This document shows positions 3,819-49,417 of a stretch of DNA of 64,000 nucleotides, piece after piece. Position 1 is the first letter of the stretch. The number at the start of each line of letters is the position of its first letter. The DNA comes from Acidobacteriaceae bacterium (GTDB taxonomy: Bacteria; Acidobacteriota; Terriglobia; Terriglobales; Acidobacteriaceae). Below the pieces are notes generated by a model, which saw only the letters and a program-made list of their open reading frames with translations, was not told the origin of the DNA and did not search any database. Where the stretch lies: the NCBI GenBank assembly GCA_025462735.1, contig JAOAPC010000022.1, positions 1 to 64,000 of the forward strand, written 5' to 3'. Made by a program: the position numbers and the translations under genes.

Positions 3819-4702
3819 CAGCCTTCATTTCCCCAAGGTTCCCGCGCAGCCACGCAGTCGGGTTTTGGACATTCGTAAATAGTATTCGCAGAATGTGCGC
3901 AGGCTTCTTCTACTGAAGTCGTAAGCATCCCCTCGTCTTGAGCGGCATGCACGCCTATGACATGAACCGGAAACATGTTTAGGAGCAAGTACGGAATTTC
4001 GGTTTCACCGAACGAGGAATTGTTACCCGCAGCTGCGGTCCGTAGCATCGCAGTGGAGCCGACACGAGGCGAAAGGATAGGAGTTTAGACCCCGCGTTCG
4101 CGACGATTTCCTTGGAGGAGTCCGCAGCGGCGTCAATGGTGCGCCTACGTTTTTCATAAATTCCGTGAGGCACGACGGCTCGTATAACTTCGAAGACCTC
4201 GTTTCGGCTATTGACGCGCGCCTTGACCAGTCAAGGCAGGCAGCATGACCAATCCCAATCTTCTGAGCACACCTATGGCAGAAAAAATGGAATCAGGAAG
4301 CGTTTGCATGGCTTGTGGAAATAACAAATACGGCCAGTGCGAAGCAATGCGGACATTGTGGCCGGGATCGTGACCTGAGTGAAGAACCTACCGATCAAGC
4401 ACTTGTCGATGATGATCCGGGCCTGCTGCACGCGGATCCAAGCAATCGCATTGATTTGGACCGGTTCGCCCGTTTGGATGAGGCGGAACTGGCCTGCGCC
4501 AGGTCTTCCTGCGAACATTATTCTCTGGGTGAATTCTGACGATGCAAAACTGGCCTGGGCGTTGCTGGCGGACGCCGAGCGAGAAGCAGCATCTCGTGGA
4601 AACCACAGCAGTGGGGCCCGAAGAAGAACTGCTGCGCGTAAGCGACCGCGGCCTTTTTATCAGTGGTCAGTGTGAATGTCGGAAGTGGCGTTCGGTCAGA
4701 CC

Positions 4703-5371
4703 TTAAACCAAAGACATCGAAGACAGCCATTCGGCGTAGGCTGCACTACTCTCGTCGTGCATGCCGAAAAACTTTATTCCAAATACCGGTCCGCGTGACC
4801 AGCAGATAAGTGCTACCGCAGTCACAATCGTTCCTTTTGTATTTGGAAGGGTGAAGCGAATCGTAACCGAGCCGTGTAGATGTGCCCGATCCAACAACCG
4901 CAGTGCCAAGCCACCATCACTTACGTTTAGGATTTGCGCGGAAATAACTGTGCCGTCACGGCGAATCACCTCGGCATCAATCGCAAGCTCATAGCGAAAA
5001 TACCGGCGGTGTTCCGTCTCCATTTTGCGGAGTGAGGACTGAAAATAGGTGCCTAGGCGGCCGGCATCGAGCGGTTTTTCTAACACGAAATTCGATCCCA
5101 GTTCCATGGCTGTCGCAACGGCTGTCTTGTTCACAATTGTGAAGATCACAGACTTGCGATTCGATCGGCTGCCGCGTGCGGCGACGATCAGTTCCGACCC
5201 GCGCTCAATTCCGTCGCAATCGATGATGAACCCGTCAAAGTGACTTCTGCCGATAAGCTCGAGTGCGTTGATGCTGTCTTCGCAGACACGGAGCTCAACC
5301 CCGTCAAACACCTCTGCGACCGGCTTTTGCACCTCCGAATCGCGGCTCACCAGTAGGCTATTTAGGCGCAC
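4703..5371 (-). CDS. degenerate receiver-like + PilZ domain protein
   Basis: N-terminal CheY-like fold pattern (FDGFIIDCDG..VLEKPLDAGRL) then RRYFRYELAIDAEV..ILNVSDGGLAL PilZ pattern. Confidence 0.8.
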   Translation of the reverse strand: MRLNSLLVSRDSEVQKPVAEVFDGVELRVCEDSINALELIGRSHFDGFIIDCDGIERGSELIVAARGSRSNRKSVIFTIVNKTAVATAMELGSNFVLEKPLDAGRLGTYFQSSLRKMETEHRRYFRYELAIDAEVIRRDGTVISAQILNVSDGGLALRLLDRAHLHGSVTIRFTLPNTKGTIVTAVALICWSRGPVFGIKFFGMHDESSAAYAEWLSSMSLV

Positions 5372-5529
5372 ATTGAAATGCTAGACCCCTACGTTCTTCA
5401 GCGGTAGTAACTACGGTAACGGACTCGTGTTCTGTTCGGAATCGTACAAATCGAGTAAGGTTCACAGCGAAAACGTGCAATGGCGAAGCGGCGAATCGGC
5501 TTCCTTACGCACAACCATGACCAGATTCA

Positions 5530-5776
5530 TTTATTACTGACTGATGTTAGTTATGCCCGGAATCAGTGGCCGCCAGTTAGCTGAGAGCGCTTCCATATTG
5601 TGTAATATGAAAGTCCTCTACATATCTGGCTACACCGCTGATCTGATCGCGCAGCACGGAATCCTCGAACCGCAATTGTGCTACTCGAAACGCCATTTAC
5701 CAAAGAAGCGTTGCTGAGCAAGATTCGGAAGGTTCTGGACACGGAGCGTCCAGTTCGCGCTGCTGCAGCGCCATAA
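5530..5776 (+). pseudogene. decayed response-regulator receiver domain (C-terminal part)
   Basis: Frame-shifted pieces: LLLTDV / MPGISGRQLAE...MKVLYISGYTADLIAQHGILEP / VLLETPFTKEALLSKIRKVLD. Confidence 0.75.
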
Positions 5777-6410
5777 CTCTAAATTCGCGGTAATAGACGA
5801 TCAACACTGGAAAACACATTCGCACTAAAAACCCGATACCCCAGCGTTAACTTCCAGCGCCCGGGCATCGCACTACGCTTGCCTGTAGCAACTGAATCCT
5901 AAAATATGCCACCTGCTCGTTCAATTCCCAAGAAGTCCGAACCGTTGCTACAACTTCGGGATTATGATTCTCGCCTTTCAGTTGTAACCGTGTTCCGTTA
6001 AGCCGCACTGAGAGGCGAAACTATATTCCGTGTCCTGAAGGTACACACTGAGTCGTGAAGAATGTCGCCGAAGTGAAATGGGATGCTCGACTTCAACCGA
6101 ACGAGATCGGCGTATCCGTAAAAGACGGATCGTGACGCTTACAGGTTGGGTTGACTCCTATCTTAAAAACTGAACCGTCGAAGATGTTGCTCATCGAGTG
6201 GATGAAGTAAAGGGCGAGCAACCTTGTCGTCTTTGACCTCGATGGAAGGGCTGCCAAAAGAATCTGTTGCAAAATAGTTAATATCCCGCCAGATGAGGTC
6301 CCAAGGTCGCCGATCGAGTGAAGGCGCGTGTGTTGCAGGCGGTTGAGGCAGAACGCGGCACCAGCGAAAGAAAAGCATCCTGAATAACCAGGTTTTCCAT
6401 GCAGTTTGTG

Positions 6411-7571
6411 TTACGCGGTCCGTAGCAGATCGTTGCTCTCGTCCAGCGGAGAGATAAAGAGATGCGACTTGTCAGAATCATTGATGCGGCTTCCACCAGC
6501 CTCCATCATCTCCCAGAAATCGATGCCATAAATAATGCAGAGACTCATGATTTTCGCAATGTGCCTTGGTAGCTTGTTCATTGCTTCGTAGTCCGACAAC
6601 AGACCCAGCGGTATAGAGTAGTCGCGATTTCGGAGCAGCTGTGCAACTCGAATTGTCATCTGGTGAGCTGCGCGAAGAGTCAAGCCAGTACGCGCCCGGG
6701 ACAGACGCAGCAGCCTTGAAAAATTCGTCCCGTTCCCAGCATGCGGTGGCATTGTGAGGAGCTCGGATTTTTTCGGAATGTACATGGGATCAAATGGGTT
6801 CGATTGGCGAGGGCGAAGTTCAAGATCAACCAAGCCCAGGATTCGTGCTTCCCGCGAGAGCCGTAGCGGCCAGGCTGACAACGGAGGACGGTTCGGCAGC
6901 AAGACGATATGCTCATTGTCGACTCGCTTGACATGACAGCAGGCAAGGCCGCCGGGATGTTCTACCAGCCACAGCAAGTCGTCGGCGTACGACCCATCGA
7001 GAACATGCGGCGAATAACATCGGTCTGCACGCACGACGCTGCCGGGCAAGATTTTAGGGTACAGGACGGCATCACGGCTGCCTATTTTGGCAAAAAAATA
7101 ACGTCGGTTCGATTGCTCCGGTCTTGAGCGCCAAGGAATAAGCGAGGAATCGCACTCGAGAACAGCGTCGATCGGCGTGACGATGGCAGTGCGTTCGGTG
7201 TGTACCGCCAGCTGTAGGGACAGAATCAGCTTTAGGTCAAATCCACACACATTCATCCAGTCGGCAAACCGGTAGCCCGTAACCTGGCTAAGCGCCACGA
7301 TCTGACAGATGTGTGGCGTAATCCCATTCTTTTGTTTATAAAGGAAGGTGGGCGGAACGAAGTATGGGGTCTTCTTCCCATAGCGCTTGCAGGTCAGAGC
7401 CGAGACCTGACGCATGGTCAATCCGGCTTGCCTCAATATCTGCTTGAGTTGCGCTGCGCGGGCGTATTTGTCGTATTTCGGTGCGGCGTTCGGTGAACAG
7501 CCTGCCAAGTAAAACGCAGATTTCTCAAGGGACCCACGCGCCAGAGTACTCGCCGCTGCGCAGGTGCTCAT
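6411..7571 (-). CDS. HTH regulator with central LexA/S24-like domain and second C-terminal HTH-like region
   Basis: LKQILRQAGLTMRQVSALT.. HTH; FFAKIGSRDAVLYPKILPGSVVRAD...CCHVKRVDNEHIVLLPNRPP S24-like; FSRLLRLSRARTGLTLRAAHQMT second HTH. Confidence 0.7.
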   Translation of the reverse strand: MSTCAAASTLARGSLEKSAFYLAGCSPNAAPKYDKYARAAQLKQILRQAGLTMRQVSALTCKRYGKKTPYFVPPTFLYKQKNGITPHICQIVALSQVTGYRFADWMNVCGFDLKLILSLQLAVHTERTAIVTPIDAVLECDSSLIPWRSRPEQSNRRYFFAKIGSRDAVLYPKILPGSVVRADRCYSPHVLDGSYADDLLWLVEHPGGLACCHVKRVDNEHIVLLPNRPPLSAWPLRLSREARILGLVDLELRPRQSNPFDPMYIPKKSELLTMPPHAGNGTNFSRLLRLSRARTGLTLRAAHQMTIRVAQLLRNRDYSIPLGLLSDYEAMNKLPRHIAKIMSLCIIYGIDFWEMMEAGGSRINDSDKSHLFISPLDESNDLLRTA

Positions 7572-7633
7572 CCATCAACGCGGGCCAACGACGGCGAAGC
7601 CGTTTCGGGGTGGGGACATTGGGCGGTGATGCT

Positions 7634-7846
7634 TCATGAACCTTTTTCTCCCTGGAGTTCATCGACGCAGTCGAGCATGTGCTGCACTTCGGGATCGCCG
7701 GCGTCGGCGTGTTGCAAAAGCAAATCTTTCGCTGCCGCAGGGCTCAGAGGCTTGAGACCTGGTGCAAGGTAAGGGGCGCCGACTTTCATCTCTTGGTCGG
7801 TCATCGGGTCGGCGGTCATCGATTTGTGCACATCGCTAGATTCCAT
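7634..7846 (-). CDS. small hypothetical protein (70 aa)
   Basis: Short ORF MESSDVHKSMTADPMTDQEMKVGAPYLAPGLKPLSPAAAKDLLLQHADAGDPEVQHMLDCVDELQGEKGS; plausible composition. Confidence 0.4.
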   Translation of the reverse strand: MESSDVHKSMTADPMTDQEMKVGAPYLAPGLKPLSPAAAKDLLLQHADAGDPEVQHMLDCVDELQGEKGS

Positions 7847-8330
7847 CCTGAATCATCTCCTCGATTTTCTCTAGTCATCAGAAAGTGACACTTGAGCGAA
7901 AAATTCCGCCCGGCGTATTGTGCTGGCACAGTCGATGAAACCCACCGGCTTACCTTGAATTCACTGGCAGCATACCGCTGGGGCGGCGAGGTTGCAGTGT
8001 TGGCGGATGCTCGTCGCTTTGCCGACGAACGTTAGGTTCTCAGCCATTCCGCTGCGATCCCGATAATCACTGGGGTTTGCGCTGTGTTGAGATTAGCTAC
8101 AAGCCGGCCAAGAAAGGTGTCCATGCTCATTCGTCGTAGGTATACCGACGACGAATCGACCGCGTTGAAGTGTTTCCAAGACGTTAGGCCCGCGTCACAC
8201 CTTCAGAACCATGGACGGCAGTCTCCTGCCCAATCGCGCGATTTTCGAACATGAGCCCGGCTCTCCCAAAAATACCCGTAGTGTCTCTGCAGTAGCAGAC
8301 AACTAACTAGCTCTTGAGGGGGACACTTTT

Positions 8331-8444
8331 ATGAAAAAGATTGTGCGCTTGGTTGTCGTAGCCGTTCTATTGACTTGTGCGATGTCCACTGCTTCCTTAG
8401 CGGACGGTGGGGCGCCCATGCCCGGCTGCTCAGCTTGTAAATAG
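8331..8444 (+). CDS. 37-aa secreted micropeptide (MKKIVRLVVVAVLLTCAMSTASLADGGAPMPGCSACK)
   Basis: ATG at 8331 preceded by gaggggga RBS; textbook signal peptide; stop at 8442-8444; not in the supplied ORF track. Confidence 0.7.
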   Translation: MKKIVRLVVVAVLLTCAMSTASLADGGAPMPGCSACK

Positions 8445-8498
8445 ATTTAGCTGATTCTTGTGGGCCGGCTGGTTTGCGAGTACTCTGACAGTCGGCCC

Positions 8499-9257
8499 AT
8501 GAACTTCTCCTATCTTGTAACCATGACCCTGTGGGTCCTGCCGCTCGCACTTCAGGCCCTTATTGCGCTCGTTATGCTTAGGCGCAAACTGGTAACAAGT
8601 TTTCCCATTTTCTTCAGCTACACTGTCCTGGTGCTCTCCGGGGAGACCGCTCTCCTATTTGTAAAGAATCCAAGCAATAGTTACGCTCTCGTTTACTGGA
8701 GCCAGGAAGCGTTTGCGGTTTTGCTGGGCTTGGCAGTGATTTTCGAAATTTTGGGGCACATTCTTCCCCCCTCCCCCTTTATGGGATTTGTGTCGAAGTC
8801 CATTTGGATTTTCGGCGCTATTGCTGCCGTTGCAGCTCTTCTGATGTTGGTCTTGACCAACGGCAGTCAGGGAGCAGATCGGATTGTCGAATTTATCATC
8901 CTTGCGGAACGCTCCGCCCGATTTCTTCAGGCTTGCCTATTTATTGTGGTGATTGCGCTCATGTCGCGCCTGGGATTGACGTGGCACCATTACTCGGTCG
9001 GAATCGCCGCCGGCTTTGGTATCTACTCAGCACTGGCGCTTACCGCGTTCGAACTTCATGCTCACCTGCATTTCATGAGTTACAAGACGTTGGCGCTGCT
9101 TAATCCCGCAGCATATAATGTCGCGGCCCTCATTTGGGCCTTCTACATAGTGCGACCATGGCCAGCAACGGTAGTGGAGCATTTGCCCCACGGCACCAAT
9201 TTGGCGGAGTGGAATGAAGCGGTAGGCGGTTACATCAACCAATGGTATCGACGCTAG
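8499..9257 (+). CDS. polytopic (about 7 TM) membrane protein of unknown function
   Basis: Hydrophobic segments throughout; likely start Met14 of the ORF (MNFSYLVTMTLWVLPLALQ). Confidence 0.8.
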   Translation: MNFSYLVTMTLWVLPLALQALIALVMLRRKLVTSFPIFFSYTVLVLSGETALLFVKNPSNSYALVYWSQEAFAVLLGLAVIFEILGHILPPSPFMGFVSKSIWIFGAIAAVAALLMLVLTNGSQGADRIVEFIILAERSARFLQACLFIVVIALMSRLGLTWHHYSVGIAAGFGIYSALALTAFELHAHLHFMSYKTLALLNPAAYNVAALIWAFYIVRPWPATVVEHLPHGTNLAEWNEAVGGYINQWYRR

Positions 9258-9748
9258 TAATCTTCGCAGTGGCTACATTGGCTCTGGTTTTTGTTTACGG
9301 GCTTCTACGCAGCGGGTATCCCGAAATACGTAACGGACGTGACTGGGACGAGAAAAAGCACGAGATTGACGTCCAGATCTTCCGGATCCTTCTAGACCGA
9401 AACGAAGAACTTCAACTTCAGAGCTTTCTTTCTCAAGATCAATTTGCGGCTTTCCAGAGGAGGCGAATACATTTGGGATTGCGTATGCTGCGATTGGTTG
9501 ACGAGAATGCCGGCATGTTGATGGAATTGGGACGGCTCGTAAAAATGAAAGGCGATCCGGCACTCGCGCTGAAGGTTGATGAACTGATCGCAACCGCGCT
9601 GCAGTTGCGATTGAATCTATTCCTTGCGAGGCTTTGCCTGTATGTAAAATGGCTCTTTCCATCTGCGACTGTATCCTTACCGGCTTTCGAAATGCGCTAT
9701 CAACAGCTGTTGGATTCTATGCAGGGGGCCAGCAGCGTGGCCGCGTAG
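9242..9748 (+). CDS. single-TM protein with helical cytoplasmic domain, unknown function
   Basis: Overlaps the preceding CDS by 16 nt; N-terminal TM MVSTLVIFAVATLALVFVYGLL. Confidence 0.75.
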   Translation: MVSTLVIFAVATLALVFVYGLLRSGYPEIRNGRDWDEKKHEIDVQIFRILLDRNEELQLQSFLSQDQFAAFQRRRIHLGLRMLRLVDENAGMLMELGRLVKMKGDPALALKVDELIATALQLRLNLFLARLCLYVKWLFPSATVSLPAFEMRYQQLLDSMQGASSVAA

Positions 9749-9929
9749 CTCTGAATCGGTCATTCTGCGATCTCGGTTATCTACGAGATCGGTTTCTCGA
9801 ACGTGATTGCTTTGGAGCAACTTCGATCGTCACTGTTGCGATGATTTTGCCCTTTGACTCTGACAATTGCATCGGTCAATGGGGTTAATTAATCCATCGA
9901 TAGTATGCTGGTAGATCAGGCCTAAGAAA

Positions 9930-10703
9930 ATGGAACCGGGAAAGTGGATTCGAGCGCTGCGCGAAGATCGGCTGATAAAACCGAGCGATGTCGAACGCAT
10001 TACGCGCACGGTTGCGGAAGCAAAAGGGAACACCGACTTTTATGTTCCACACTCTACCCTGGCCGACATTGAATCGGGTTCCATTCCTAGTATTCACAAA
10101 CTCTTCAGTCTGGCAATTTCGCTCAAGGTACCGTTGAACGAACTATTGTTACCCTTCGGGATCGATCCTAAGGAAATTGCTGATTATGAGGCGGGGTCGC
10201 GGCAGGATGCGCTTCAATTCCAATCTCTGACAGGCAATGAGGCCCCTTTCCGTTTTGCACTTAACTTCGACACGAATTCCAACACGCAGGAGACCACCCT
10301 TTTGAGGCTGCAGCCGCAGGATACGGCGAACTTGCCGCCGGTTCTGCGCGCCCAAATTGATCTTCGTTATCGATATGCGGTAATTGGTTCAAGCGATGAC
10401 AGCATGGCGGACTTGCTTCCTTCGCGATCAGTGGTTCAGATTGACACCTCACAGAACAGAGTTCAGGTGTTCGCGTGGCGAGTGCTTCGTGAGCGTCCTA
10501 TATACCTTGTCTGGCACACGGAAGGGCATACCTGCTGCTGGTGTCAGGTCGATGGACGAGAACTGACCATGGTGCCCCATCCGCTGTCGCGGCAGACAAT
10601 TCGGCGTTTCAAGATGCCCAGGGAAGCGACCGTAGTCGGCAGGGTAACAAATGCGTGGCTTCCGTTTGGGTCGGTTCAGCTCGAGCGCGACATTGCGTCG
10701 TAA
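9930..10703 (+). CDS. HTH regulator with LexA/S24-like C-terminal domain
   Basis: IRALREDRLIKPSDVERITRTVAE..STLADIESGSIPSIHKLFSLAISLKVPLNELL HTH; AVIGSSDDSMADLLPSRSVVQID S24-like. Confidence 0.8.
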   Translation: MEPGKWIRALREDRLIKPSDVERITRTVAEAKGNTDFYVPHSTLADIESGSIPSIHKLFSLAISLKVPLNELLLPFGIDPKEIADYEAGSRQDALQFQSLTGNEAPFRFALNFDTNSNTQETTLLRLQPQDTANLPPVLRAQIDLRYRYAVIGSSDDSMADLLPSRSVVQIDTSQNRVQVFAWRVLRERPIYLVWHTEGHTCCWCQVDGRELTMVPHPLSRQTIRRFKMPREATVVGRVTNAWLPFGSVQLERDIAS

Positions 10704-11227
10704 GACTCTTTCTCGATCCATCTCGAATAATTCAAAATCACCAACGCCAATTCAGTGTTCAGGCAAAAAAGGTCAGAGTAGATAGGGAGCGCCTGCAACG
10801 GAACGGTCGAGCGGTATGCCTGCAGGGATTGCCAAGTCCTCAAAACTGTGTCCCGATCGGCTCTCGTATAACGAATGTACTCCTCCAGTTGCAGCACATA
10901 CGCTGATATTGACGTCTTCAGCAGACGTCGAAAAACTTGATCATGACAGGCGCTTAAGGCGTGATCGGCTTCTTCCACTCCGATCATCGGAGAGAGTTCA
11001 GGATGAAGATAACGGCCGCTATTGCAGTCTCTGAGAGAAGCTAAGTACAACATTCTGGTCAGGTCGTTAGGAAGAACGTCGAGCCCCGTGACCCGAATGC
11101 ACGTTTCAAGGGCGGTCGCGGACACTTCGATTTGCGGGACAAGACGAACAGAGTCCTGGTGGGACTCAGTAACTAATCTCTTGGAAAGCCCCCACAGTCG
11201 ATTTGTCATTCTGTTCACCAGTTCCAA
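10676..11227 (-). CDS. hypothetical protein (183 aa)
   Basis: Long ORF convergent with and overlapping 9930-10703 by 28 nt. Confidence 0.6.
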   Translation of the reverse strand: MELVNRMTNRLWGLSKRLVTESHQDSVRLVPQIEVSATALETCIRVTGLDVLPNDLTRMLYLASLRDCNSGRYLHPELSPMIGVEEADHALSACHDQVFRRLLKTSISAYVLQLEEYIRYTRADRDTVLRTWQSLQAYRSTVPLQALPIYSDLFCLNTELALVILNYSRWIEKESYDAMSRSS

Positions 11228-11406
11228 GTTCAGGAAGGTCCCTGAACTCCGGATGTCCCTAACAACGACGTCCCTTTAGAATTCAGCTCGTGCCGAATAT
11301 TATTCCTAGTTTGTGAGATGTCGTCAGTTCCCCGCGATACACCAAGTAGTTATTACCCTGAGACCGGGGATAATAATATCACTGGCCGCGAACGGCCTTT
11401 GCAAGA

Positions 11407-12624
11407 CTACATTGTTCGGGTGAGTTCCGCGCACTCCCGCGCAATCGACCAATCCTCTTGCGCGCGAATTACTAGCACACGAACCGCAGATTTCGACGTT
11501 GATATCTCAACGTCCGGCTTGGCCAAGGCATTCTTTCCCTCATCGATTTGCGCTCCTAGAAAGCCCAGCTTGGCGCATGTGGCGCGGCGAACCTCTGCGG
11601 AGTTTTCGCCGATTCCCGCAGTGAAGGCGATCGCGTCCACTCCACCGAGTGAGGCAGCCATTGCGGCGATTCCTGTTTGCAGCCGGTGGACAAAAATATC
11701 AAAAGCGAGTTTGGCGCGCTCATTCCCGTTGCCGGCGGCTTTGACGACGTCCCGCATGTCGCTGGACACGCCGGATATGCCCAACAATCCCGAGCGGCGA
11801 TTCAGCGTCTCATCCAGTTGATCCACACTCGTGTGGTCTGCCCGCATGAGCTGCAGCAAAATACCTGGGTCAACCGAGCCGCCACGTGTCCCCATCATTA
11901 TGCCTTCAAGTGGAGTGAAACCCATGGTTGTATCTACGCTCTTACCAGCGTCGATGGCCGCGAGTGAGCACCCGTTTCCAAGATGGCAGCTGATGATTTT
12001 CAACGAAGAAATCTCGCGGCCCAGCATCCGCGCCGCCCGGTGTCCGCAATATTCATGACTGATTCCGTGAAACCCATAGCGCCGGATTCCGTGCTCGAAC
12101 CACTCGTACGGCCCAGGATAAACGGCTGCGTGGGGCGGCAGGGTGCGATGAAACCCCGTGTCGAAGACAGCGACTTGTGGTTTGCCGGGAAACAGCTTCT
12201 CGGCAATTTCAATCCCTTGCAGTCCTGCTTTGTTGTGCAGCGGCGCGATGGCAGAAACGTCAGCAATGGCCTGCTTAACCTCGGACGTGATAATCGTCGG
12301 CTGGCAAAGATGTGGCCCGCCGTGAACAATGCGGTGGCCAACTACGGCGATTTCGGAACCGTTGCGGATAGTCTGTGTCGGCGGCTGCCACAGTTTCTGC
12401 AGCATCTTCTCAAGTGACGATCTTCGATCTTTGGCTTGAACCACTGCTTCTGCATTGAATTTATTCCCGTCGGCATTTTTTAATGTAAGTGTTTCTTTGT
12501 CCCCGTCCCACTCAAGCTTGCCTTCCCAGAGTAGTGGCGTCGGCTCAGAGGAGGGTGTCGGATCCAGATCAAAGAGCGCACTCTTCTGGGTGCTCGATCC
12601 GGAGTTCAGAACAAGGATCTTCAT
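11407..12624 (-). CDS. ackA: acetate kinase
   Basis: MKILVLNSGSSTQKSALF; VGHRIVHGG; FDTGFHRTLPP; TGIGENSAEVR. Confidence 0.97.
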   Translation of the reverse strand: MKILVLNSGSSTQKSALFDLDPTPSSEPTPLLWEGKLEWDGDKETLTLKNADGNKFNAEAVVQAKDRRSSLEKMLQKLWQPPTQTIRNGSEIAVVGHRIVHGGPHLCQPTIITSEVKQAIADVSAIAPLHNKAGLQGIEIAEKLFPGKPQVAVFDTGFHRTLPPHAAVYPGPYEWFEHGIRRYGFHGISHEYCGHRAARMLGREISSLKIISCHLGNGCSLAAIDAGKSVDTTMGFTPLEGIMMGTRGGSVDPGILLQLMRADHTSVDQLDETLNRRSGLLGISGVSSDMRDVVKAAGNGNERAKLAFDIFVHRLQTGIAAMAASLGGVDAIAFTAGIGENSAEVRRATCAKLGFLGAQIDEGKNALAKPDVEISTSKSAVRVLVIRAQEDWSIARECAELTRTM

Positions 12625-12738
12625 AGGGAAGAATTGGCTTTCCTTCGTGTACCTTTGTGCCCTTCGTGGTTAAAAAAATCATCGACCACAAAGAAAACTA
12701 CGGTGCAAGACGGAAACAGCGAGGCAATCGGCTTTGAA

Positions 12739-15129
12739 TCAGTACGGCCATTTCCAATTCAGAATTTCCGGAAGGTCGATGCCGTGCTCAAAAATGTACT
12801 GTTTGTGTTCAATAAGTTTGTTACGGACGAATTGTTTGAAGTGTCCGCCGACCCTTTGCAGCTTGGGCACCCGATCTACCACGTCGCCCGCTAAATGGAA
12901 CCGATCGAGGTCATTCAACACGGTCATATCGAATGGAGTGGTGGTCGTGCCCTCTTCTTTATAGCCGCGCACATGAAGGTTGTCGTGATTATGGCGGCGA
13001 TAAGTGAGTCGATGGATCAACCACGGATACCCGTGATAAGCGAAGATAACCGGCTTATCGACGGTGAACAGGGAATCGAAGTCGCTGTCCGAAAGCCCGT
13101 GCGGGTGTTCGCTTGAGGGCTGAAGCGTCATCAGGTCCACAATGTTGATCACTCGGATTTTCAGATCAGGAAAGTGCTGTCGCAATAAATCCACCGCAGC
13201 CAGGATTTCGAGCGTTGGCACGTCTCCGGCGCAGGCCATAACAACGTCGGGCTCGGAGTCATCGTCATTGCTGGCCCACTCCCAAATGCCGATGCCATTT
13301 GTGCAATGCTCGATCGCCGATTCCATATCCAGCCACTGCAACTCTGGCTGTTTACCCGCCACCATCACATTCACGTAGTGGCGGCTGCGCAAACAATGGT
13401 CAGCAACCGACAACAGGCAATTCGCGTCCGGTGGCAGATACACACGCACTACGTCCGCCTTTTTGTTCATTACGTGATCAATGAATCCCGGGTCCTGGTG
13501 CGTGAACCCGTTGTGGTCCTGCCGCCAGACATGTGAAGTGAGCAGGTAATTCAGCGACGCAATAGGGCGCCGCCACTCGATAGTTCGCGTGACATTCAGC
13601 CACTTTGCATGCTGGTTGAACATTGAGTCCACGATGTGAATGAATGCCTCATAGCACGAGAAGAATCCGTGACGCCCGGTCAGCAGATATCCCTCCAGCC
13701 ATCCCTGGCACATGTGCTCGCTCAATATCTCGAGCACCCGGCCGTCGGGCGATAGGTTTTCGTCCACCGGCAGAATCGGCTCAAGCCATTCCTTGTCCGT
13801 GACCTCATACAAAGCCTCCAGCCGATTCGAGGCAGTTTCATCCGGGCCGAAAACACGAAAATTCTTGGACCCGAGATTCAGCTTCATCACGTCACGCAGA
13901 AATCCGCCGAGCACCCGCGTGGATTCGGCCTCCACCGTTCCGGGCCTCGGCACCTGGACTGCGTAGCTCTGAAAGTCCGGCATCACCAGATCGCGCAACA
14001 ACCTCCCGCCGTTTGCGTGCGGGTTCGCGCTCATCCGGCGGTCGCCCTTGGGCGCAAGGTCGGCCAGCTCGGGAACTAATTTGCCGGATTCATCAAACAA
14101 TTCTTCCGGACGATAACTGCGCATCCAGTCTTCCAGAATTTTTATGTGCGCGGGCTTCTGTTGCAGATCAGTCACCGGAACCTGGTGCGCACGCCAAGTC
14201 CCTTCAACCTGTTTCCCATCGACCATCTTTGGCCCTGTCCAGCCTTTTGGCGTTCGCATTACGATCATTGGCCATTCCGGTAGGCCCGGGTTCTTTCGGC
14301 CACGCGCTTCACTCTGGATCGAGCGAATCTCTTCAACAACTTGATCGAGCGTTGCCGCCATAAGCTGGTGCATGTGCTCCGGCTCGTGGCCTTCGAGGAA
14401 GTACGGCTTCCACCCGTAACCGCTGAACAGTTTGGTCAGTTGGTCGTCGCTCATTCGTCCGAGGATTGTCGGGTTCGCAATCTTATAGCCATTCAAGTGC
14501 AGAATCGGCAGCACCGCGCCATCATGCTGGGGATTAAGAAACTTATTGATATGCCATCCGGTCGCCAGGGGCCCGGTCTCGGCTTCGCCGTCGCCGACAA
14601 CGCAACAAACCAGCAGATCAGGATTATCAAATGCCGCTCCAGCAGCGTGACTGAGTGAATACCCAAGCTCGCCGCCTTCGTGGATTGACCCCGGGGTTTC
14701 CGGCGCGTCGTGGCTGGGAATCCCGCCGGGAAACGAGAATTGCTTGAACAACCGCTGCATGCCCTCTTCGTTCTGCCGGATGTTGGGATATAGCTCGCTA
14801 TAAGTACCTTCCAGATAAGCGTTGGCCACCATCCCCGGACCGCCGTGGCCGGGCCCGCAGACATAAATCACGTCGAGGTCGTATTTCGTGATGACCCGGT
14901 TGAAATGCACATAGATAAAATTCAGCCCCGGCGTGGTGCCGAAGTGCCCGAGCAGTCGCGGCTTAATGTGCTCCAGCTTCAGCGGCTCGCGCAACAGCGG
15001 GTTGGCGTACAAATAAATTTGTCCGACCGAAAGATAATTGGCGGCGCGCCAATACGCGTGGATGTTTGCGACTTCTTCTTGCGATAAAGGCGAATGAGAA
15101 ATACCGGGAAGGGAACTAACGGTCGTCAT
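12739..15129 (-). CDS. xfp: xylulose-5-phosphate/fructose-6-phosphate phosphoketolase
   Basis: [63 protein letters not shown]. Confidence 0.97.
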
Positions 15130-48796: not shown

Positions 48797-49417
48797 ATGG
48801 CAATCACTAAACGTCAGCGAGAGGTGTACGACTTTATCGCGGAGTTCGTGCAGCGCAATCAGTACTCGCCTTCGTTCGAGGAAATCGGCGACGGCTTAGG
48901 ACTGAGTTCGCTCGCCACCGTGCACAAACATATTTCAAACCTGGAAAAAAAGGGTCTGCTCAACCGCGACTACAACCGCAGCCGATCGATCGATTTGCTT
49001 CCTCCTAAAGGCCGCCTGAAGCTGGCCATGTCGGTGAATACCGGAATGGTGTTACCGCTGCTCGGGCGAATCGCCGCTGGCCAGCCGATTGAAGCCATCG
49101 AACGCCCGGAGACCATTTCACTCGCAGATTTTGTCCGCTCAAAAGAAGCTTTTGTCCTCGAGGTCAGCGGCAACTCCATGGAGGACGAGGCAATCCTCGA
49201 TGGCGACTACGTTCTGGTGGAGAAAACTAAGATCGCGCACAACGGCGACATTGTGGTCGCGCTGGTTGGTGGTACTGACGCCACCCTTAAGCGCTTCTAT
49301 CGCGAGGGAGACAAAATTCGTCTGCAGCCCTCGAATGCGAAGATGAAGGCGATCATCGTCCCCGCTGCGGACGTACAGATTCAGGGCCGGGTCATCGGTG
49401 TGCTCCGGAAGTACTAA
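48797..49417 (+). CDS. lexA: LexA repressor
   Basis: MAITKRQREVYDFIAEFVQRNQYSPSFEEIGDGLGLSSLATVHKHI; VSGNSMEDEAILDGDYVLVEK; ATLKRFYREGDKIRLQPSN. Confidence 0.97.
   Translation: MAITKRQREVYDFIAEFVQRNQYSPSFEEIGDGLGLSSLATVHKHISNLEKKGLLNRDYNRSRSIDLLPPKGRLKLAMSVNTGMVLPLLGRIAAGQPIEAIERPETISLADFVRSKEAFVLEVSGNSMEDEAILDGDYVLVEKTKIAHNGDIVVALVGGTDATLKRFYREGDKIRLQPSNAKMKAIIVPAADVQIQGRVIGVLRKY

Follow-up and report, generated by a model that had tools for sequence, protein, structure and literature searches.

A conserved micropeptide, seven-helix membrane protein and HTH regulator cassette of an Acidobacteriota family: a putative peptide-sensing module

A 64,000-nt stretch of contig JAOAPC010000022.1 from an Acidobacteriaceae bacterium (hereafter, the window) carries a cassette of genes coding for a micropeptide, a seven-transmembrane protein (7TM), a protein of 168 amino acids (p168), a helix-turn-helix (HTH) regulator and a conserved protein, X. 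We propose, at a probability of ca. 0.52 and in the absence of binding or expression data, that this cassette is an undescribed autoregulated peptide-sensing module. The analysis below establishes the conservation of the cassette, coding selection on the peptide, tandem arrays of peptide genes, the topology, a conserved promoter and palindromes at well-placed positions.

A first-pass annotation, made from the letters of the window and a list of its ORFs, had described a unit of four ORFs on the plus strand, with 54 bp separating the peptide ORF from that of the 7TM and with the 7TM gene overlapping the gene of a single-TM protein by 16 nt. All four ORFs are present in the sequence (Table 1), the overlap is confirmed (positions 9242–9257 are shared) and the 54-bp gap holds if the 252-aa version of the 7TM is accepted. 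The start codon of this version is preferred because profile homology begins there and because of the position of the promoter that precedes it. The four-gene unit was too small, since gene X and a second HTH gene (HTH2) had been missed. Gene X is convergent with HTH1 and overlaps its 3′ end; HTH2 is divergent from the peptide gene, lies ca. 760 bp away from it and is also found in loci L038, L039 and L040. A 70-aa ORF without a match in the Pfam search is located between HTH2 and the peptide gene (window 7634–7846, minus strand), and a REC/PilZ protein is encoded at 4703–5371, 3 kb from the cassette. No match to a known RNA element was found by Rfam in window positions 4000–13000.

Table 1. 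Features of the cassette region and their positions in the window.
Feature	Position	Strand	Remarks
HTH2, second member of the HTH1 family	6411..7571	-	HTH-family HMM E 8e-95
Palindromic candidate operator TCGTCGCTTTGCCGACGA	8011..8028	.	paired with the 8134 site, 123 bp apart
Palindromic candidate operator TCGTAGGTATACCGACGA	8134..8151	.	best match in own 4.36-Mb genome
Conserved box CGATTTTCGAACA	8239..8251	+	~80–90 nt before the peptide start; role unknown
37-aa exported micropeptide	8331..8444	+	signal peptide followed by mature DGGAPMPGCSACK; inferred to be cleaved after SLA
Sigma-70-type promoter TTGTGG-17-TACTCT of the 7TM-p168 operon	8458..8486	+	ends 12 nt before ATG 8499
7TM protein, probable receptor	8499..9257	+	ORF opens at GTG 8460; preferred start ATG 8499
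p168, 168 aa	9242..9748	+	N-terminal TM helix and cytoplasmic helical hairpin; 16-nt overlap with 7TM gene
HTH1, HTH regulator with degenerate S24-like C-terminal domain	9930..10703	+	Pfam HTH_3
Gene X, conserved cytoplasmic protein, function unknown	10676..11227	-	X-family HMM E 8.5e-37

The membrane genes had been said to belong to no nameable family. This holds for the 7TM and p168 and extends to the peptide and X, none of the four being covered by a Pfam or NCBIfam family. More generally, Pfam, NCBIfam, PADLOC and PDB sequence and fold searches were of no help for these four proteins, although not every library was searched with each protein.

Homologues of the 7TM were detected in 175 of 201 genomes of one Acidobacteriota family, two or more times in many of them. 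When the whole phylum was sampled, the 7TM matched nearly all genomes of the family but only three outside it, weakly. A GTDB scan with the window 7TM sequence alone as a query returned no match. A GTDB search with an alignment of the HTH protein retrieved 188 relatives/loci, 80 of which were kept; all 80 are from Acidobacteriota, many of them Ca. Sulfotelmatobacter and Acidobacteriaceae MAGs. When loci were seeded by the HTH only, 7TM, p168 and X were present in 46 of the 52 loci with enough flank, and X adjoined the HTH gene in 52/52 testable loci. Conservation is thus reciprocal, the cassette being recovered from 7TM seeds and from the HTH alone. The first-pass annotation would have been refuted had relatives failed to conserve the 37-aa ORF or the order of the genes; both are conserved family-wide.

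The commonest gene order is HTH, X (reverse), peptide, 7TM, p168 (60 loci). The order seen in the window (peptide, 7TM, p168, HTH, X in reverse) is rarer, and the peptide gene is located upstream of 7TM-p168-HTH in the window subclade. While p168 is conserved beside the 7TM in type-A loci, type-B loci consist of the peptide and 7TM genes only, without p168 or HTH. The genome from which the window derives codes for two 7TM paralogues, each with its own exported Cys-containing micropeptide, and the locus of one of them (L003/L056) has a complete set, including HTH and p168. Clustering of neighboring genes revealed only cassette families conserved close by.

Several observations concern the surroundings of these loci. 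Three HTH-X pairs with ample flank (L082, L083 and L152) have no 7TM or p168 nearby, and an HTH-X core may therefore stand alone. In 5–7 of 14 type-B loci (L058–L067), the peptide-7TM pair is flanked by gyrB on one side and dnaN/dnaA on the other (for example, L067:5107-6564, L060:4199-5416 and L064:2540-5236); this region is the usual neighborhood of the replication origin. Beside the type-B pair of the window genome (L002; C11 near 252000), a PilZ-domain protein and a DUF58 protein are encoded. Some type-A loci share a gene for an ABC transporter ATPase, located ca. 2.7 kb upstream of the 7TM gene on the opposite strand (e.g., L140:1731-3071); this recurrence may be plain synteny.

The full micropeptide of the window is MKKIVRLVVVAVLLTCAMSTASLADGGAPMPGCSACK, and its ATG codon at 8331 is preceded by a GAGGGGG stretch. 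ORFs of 30–90 aa located ≤400 nt upstream were counted as micropeptide genes if they had a Shine-Dalgarno sequence, a hydrophobic signal and a tail with a C-x(2-9)-C pattern. Such an ORF was found upstream of 57 of the 66 7TM genes in the HTH-seeded set, compared to 0/66 on the opposite strand, 1/1796 in segments drawn at random from these loci and 0/103 upstream of HTH genes. In the 7TM-seeded set, 26 of 38 7TM genes had one, versus 0 and 2/1074 in controls. Thirty-seven peptides, chosen by their C[KR]P end, were aligned. All of them retain two Cys and the final Pro, in a conserved frame ADG...C...C[KR]P whose intervening residues vary. The frequencies of differences at the three codon positions are 0.29, 0.25 and 0.58, and dN/dS equals 0.29 for the leader and 0.27 for the mature part. 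We conclude that the micropeptide gene is a real protein-coding gene and that selection acting on it is purifying rather than diversifying. A chance ORF is rejected by the strand and random-segment controls, by coding divergence and by gene order. The claim of a 37-aa ORF with a ribosome-binding site and a signal peptide is upheld by positional conservation, the position and strand controls and the coding type of divergence.

Peptide genes also occur in tandem: there are six in locus L164 and three each in L162 and L163. The mature ends of tandem copies are the same or nearly identical, while their leaders differ. One precursor (L046) contains three repeats of AGGGPxPxCDPxxC. As judged from the sequences, apparent signal-peptidase sites (A before D/E/N/G) recur despite variable leaders. 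Peptides without Cys were found in a few cassettes (L047, L123 and L147); their mature part is similar and is of the DGxPxP type or Pro-rich. Because such peptides exist, the inferred disulfide is not essential.

The first-pass annotation had called the next protein 7-TM-like, and seven helices are supported both by an AlphaFold2 model (seven helices and a C-terminal helix, pLDDT 85.7) and by the positive-inside rule. There are ca. 9.5 Lys and Arg residues per sequence on the inferred cytoplasmic side compared to 2.1 outside, and because of this excess, the protein is oriented with its N-terminus out and its C-terminus in. The nearest PDB folds found by Foldseek are class C GPCRs, rhodopsins and designed GPCR-like folds, all of them weak matches (E 0.007–0.2, TM-score 0.35–0.52). 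The modelled 7TM shares with these folds seven helices, the N-out/C-in orientation and a C-terminal helix after TM7, but there is no sequence similarity and the best E-value is 0.007. We regard the predicted likeness to GPCRs as one of topology and do not claim homology. The AlphaFold2 model of p168 (pLDDT 79.6) consists of one TM helix and a long helical hairpin; no match to p168 was found in Pfam, PDB sequences or PDB folds.

With the other proteins and the leader controlled for, distances between mature peptides follow those between 7TM proteins (partial r 0.34, permutation p 0.003). No such relation to the distances of p168, HTH or X emerged in the same partial-correlation test. The leader, too, correlates with the 7TM (partial r 0.38), and it also tracks X. 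Since the leader behaves in this way, linkage of neighboring genes could explain the coevolution signal.

The promoter arrangement that precedes the 7TM gene in the window is found in front of 72 of 84 type-A 7TM genes, compared to 1.5 expected after shuffling. The 7TM-p168 mRNA is inferred to be near-leaderless. The conserved box upstream of the peptide gene has a counterpart, CGnTTTTCGAACA, at the equivalent place in L038, L039 and L040.

Two palindromic sites are located in the region between HTH2 and the peptide gene. The palindrome of the window clade, TCGTCGGTnnACCGACGA, is present as pairs in L038 and L039 and near the peptide gene in L040. It was not found in relatives L037 and L041, although the L037 contig stops so close to the gene that a site could have been missed. 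In the window genome, sites with ≤3 mismatches are near background (33 versus 27 in a control). The two best sites of the genome are both in this cassette, the one at 8134–8151 being the best of all. Six sites have ≤2 mismatches, among them the other cassette site; one of the four remaining, C11:252236, precedes the type-B peptide gene next to a 7TM paralogue by ca. 100 bp. Sulfotelmatobacter-type loci carry a different palindrome, TTGTTnnGAATTCnnAACAA, between X and the peptide gene and, in addition, twice before HTH (112–113 bp apart). When 1.06 Mb were searched allowing ≤3 mismatches, 106 of 127 matches to it fell within the two cassette intergenic regions; in six whole genomes, there were 25 sites with ≤1 mismatch and none for a reversed control. 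This operator is absent near the window cassette, whose clade has its own palindrome. We infer that the cassette HTH binds the palindromes, though there are no binding data and it is not known which HTH protein would do so.

Copies of TTGTTnnGAATTCnnAACAA outside the cassette were seen in six Ca. Sulfotelmatobacter-type genomes (L192–L203) and may define a regulon. Their neighbors code for PilZ proteins (in two places), a thaumatin and ricin-B lectin protein, an arylsulfotransferase, a PAS histidine kinase, a papain-family protein and two unknown proteins of ca. 1200 aa. Since the matches in the six genomes sit by such varied genes, a common regulon function outside cassettes is not claimed.

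The LexA/S24-like domain ascribed to the HTH regulator was supported only in part: the domain is related, as revealed by profile-profile comparison only, and its catalytic residues are mostly lost. The C-terminal domain was aligned by hhalign to a Pfam-S24 protein of the same genome (L209) with 93% probability. LexA itself was rejected as a close relative (hhalign 0.6%). Model PF00717 fails to reach cassette regulators; its eight matches in the window genome are all elsewhere. A true LexA-type S24 protein (PF00717 E 1.8e-32) is encoded in the window at 49055–49396 on the plus strand. Among 20 HTH homologues, the position of the catalytic Ser is occupied by Thr in most, Ser being present in HTH1 of the window, and the catalytic Lys (placed by eye) is replaced within a CCWC stretch, two Cys and the Trp of which are invariant in the 20 sequences. 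Like S24/LexA/CI-type repressors, the cassette regulator has an N-terminal HTH, a C-terminal S24-like domain and palindromic candidate operators at its own promoter; unlike them, it is not matched by the Pfam S24 model and its catalytic Ser is mostly Thr. Because of the latter, autocleavage is unlikely.

The proposed mechanism is as follows. The micropeptide would leave the cytoplasm through Sec and be processed by signal peptidase I, the cleavage being inferred from the sequence. The released peptide would be Gly/Pro-rich, ca. 12–20 residues long, and mostly with two Cys able to form a small loop through an inferred disulfide. The N-out 7TM would sense the peptide outside the inner membrane and pass its state to co-transcribed p168, a putative membrane-tethered helical protein on the cytoplasmic side. 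The S24-like domain of the HTH protein, with protease residues mostly lost, probably only senses or dimerises, and the protein would set peptide output by binding palindromes upstream of the X/peptide genes and of its own gene. Ligand–receptor binding, the flow of the signal from 7TM through p168 to HTH and the signal output are all inferences. The downstream path is not uniform, since type-B loci have no p168 or HTH. By analogy with some pheromone propeptides (PMC11343458), tandem copies and repeats may be read as dosage or repeats of one ligand. The earlier suggestion of an undescribed cassette that fits peptide signalling or envelope sensing is thus supported, with peptide signalling as the best reading, though still an inference.

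Three other explanations were considered. It is possible that the micropeptide is an uncleaved accessory subunit, whose hydrophobic part is held in the membrane and whose short Cys/Pro tail contacts the 7TM on its periplasmic side, regulating or stabilising it. The near-obligatory pairing with the 7TM, even in loci without HTH and p168, and the tracking of the 7TM by the leader as well as by the mature part speak for this. On the other hand, apparent signal-peptidase sites recur though leaders vary, one precursor contains a triple repeat, and the copies in tandem arrays differ in their leaders but retain the mature end.

An unlikely alternative is that the peptide is a narrow-spectrum bacteriocin, with the 7TM (together with p168) providing immunity and the HTH protein controlling production. 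Small secreted Cys peptides, in tandem and beside a membrane protein, recall bacteriocin-immunity pairs, and the mature part varies between species. However, neighbor clustering revealed no dedicated exporter or modification enzyme conserved with the cassette, PADLOC gave no meaningful match, the cassette is present in nearly all genomes of the family, selection is purifying and not diversifying, and a 7TM with a membrane partner would be an elaborate means of immunity. Envelope redox or metal sensing, in which the Cys pair of the peptide would be a periplasmic thiol/metal probe read by the 7TM and the CCWC Cys of the regulator would also sense redox, is likewise improbable: the Cys pair of most peptides and the invariant CCWC residues favor it, but Cys-free peptides occur in otherwise complete cassettes, a probe needs no arrays or repeats, and no metal or redox gene recurs nearby.

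The peptide-sensing reading can be compared with known systems. In RRNPPA quorum sensing of Bacillota (e.g., Rap-Phr), cytoplasmic TPR receptors bind a re-imported peptide (PMC11343458). A gene for a small Sec-exported propeptide, which here stands in the same cassette as that of the putative receptor, repeated or duplicated peptide units and, in many RRNPPA members, an HTH regulator (PMC11343458) are common to both. The cassette differs in that the partner is a 7TM membrane protein and the HTH protein has no TPR domain: no TPR domain C-terminal to the HTH was found, Pfam scans of the HTH proteins giving HTH families only. With Agr/Fsr cyclic peptide systems, the cassette would share a Cys-dependent peptide loop (inferred here), a polytopic membrane receptor and an autoregulated locus, but it lacks an AgrB-like protease, a histidine kinase and a response regulator and has a signal-peptidase-type leader. 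Pfam detected no Agr-type domains in the cassette proteins, and none are conserved with the cassette within a few kb. The open-licence literature that was searched contains neither a description of the cassette nor a peptide-signalling system for Acidobacteriota. We conclude that the cassette is categorically new in its make-up and that it resembles peptide pheromone systems in outline, without the receptor types that define RRNPPA and Agr; its function is inferred.

A bolder reading, which we offer only tentatively, is that nearly all members of a dominant soil family of Acidobacteriota possess a native, hitherto unknown peptide-signalling system, in which a peptide released by signal peptidase, a stand-alone 7TM receptor of GPCR-like topology and an HTH repressor would be coupled via an unknown membrane-tethered transducer, with no histidine kinase. 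If this is true, bacteria would have a new type of receptor, a stand-alone 7TM protein that reads peptides. Among soil bacteria, few groups are as common or as hard to work with as Acidobacteriota. The cassette is family-wide and consists of protein families that lack a curated model, and its peptides are short enough for synthesis and for direct tests on cultured members; it thus offers a testable handle on how soil Acidobacteriota may sense self or their envelope.
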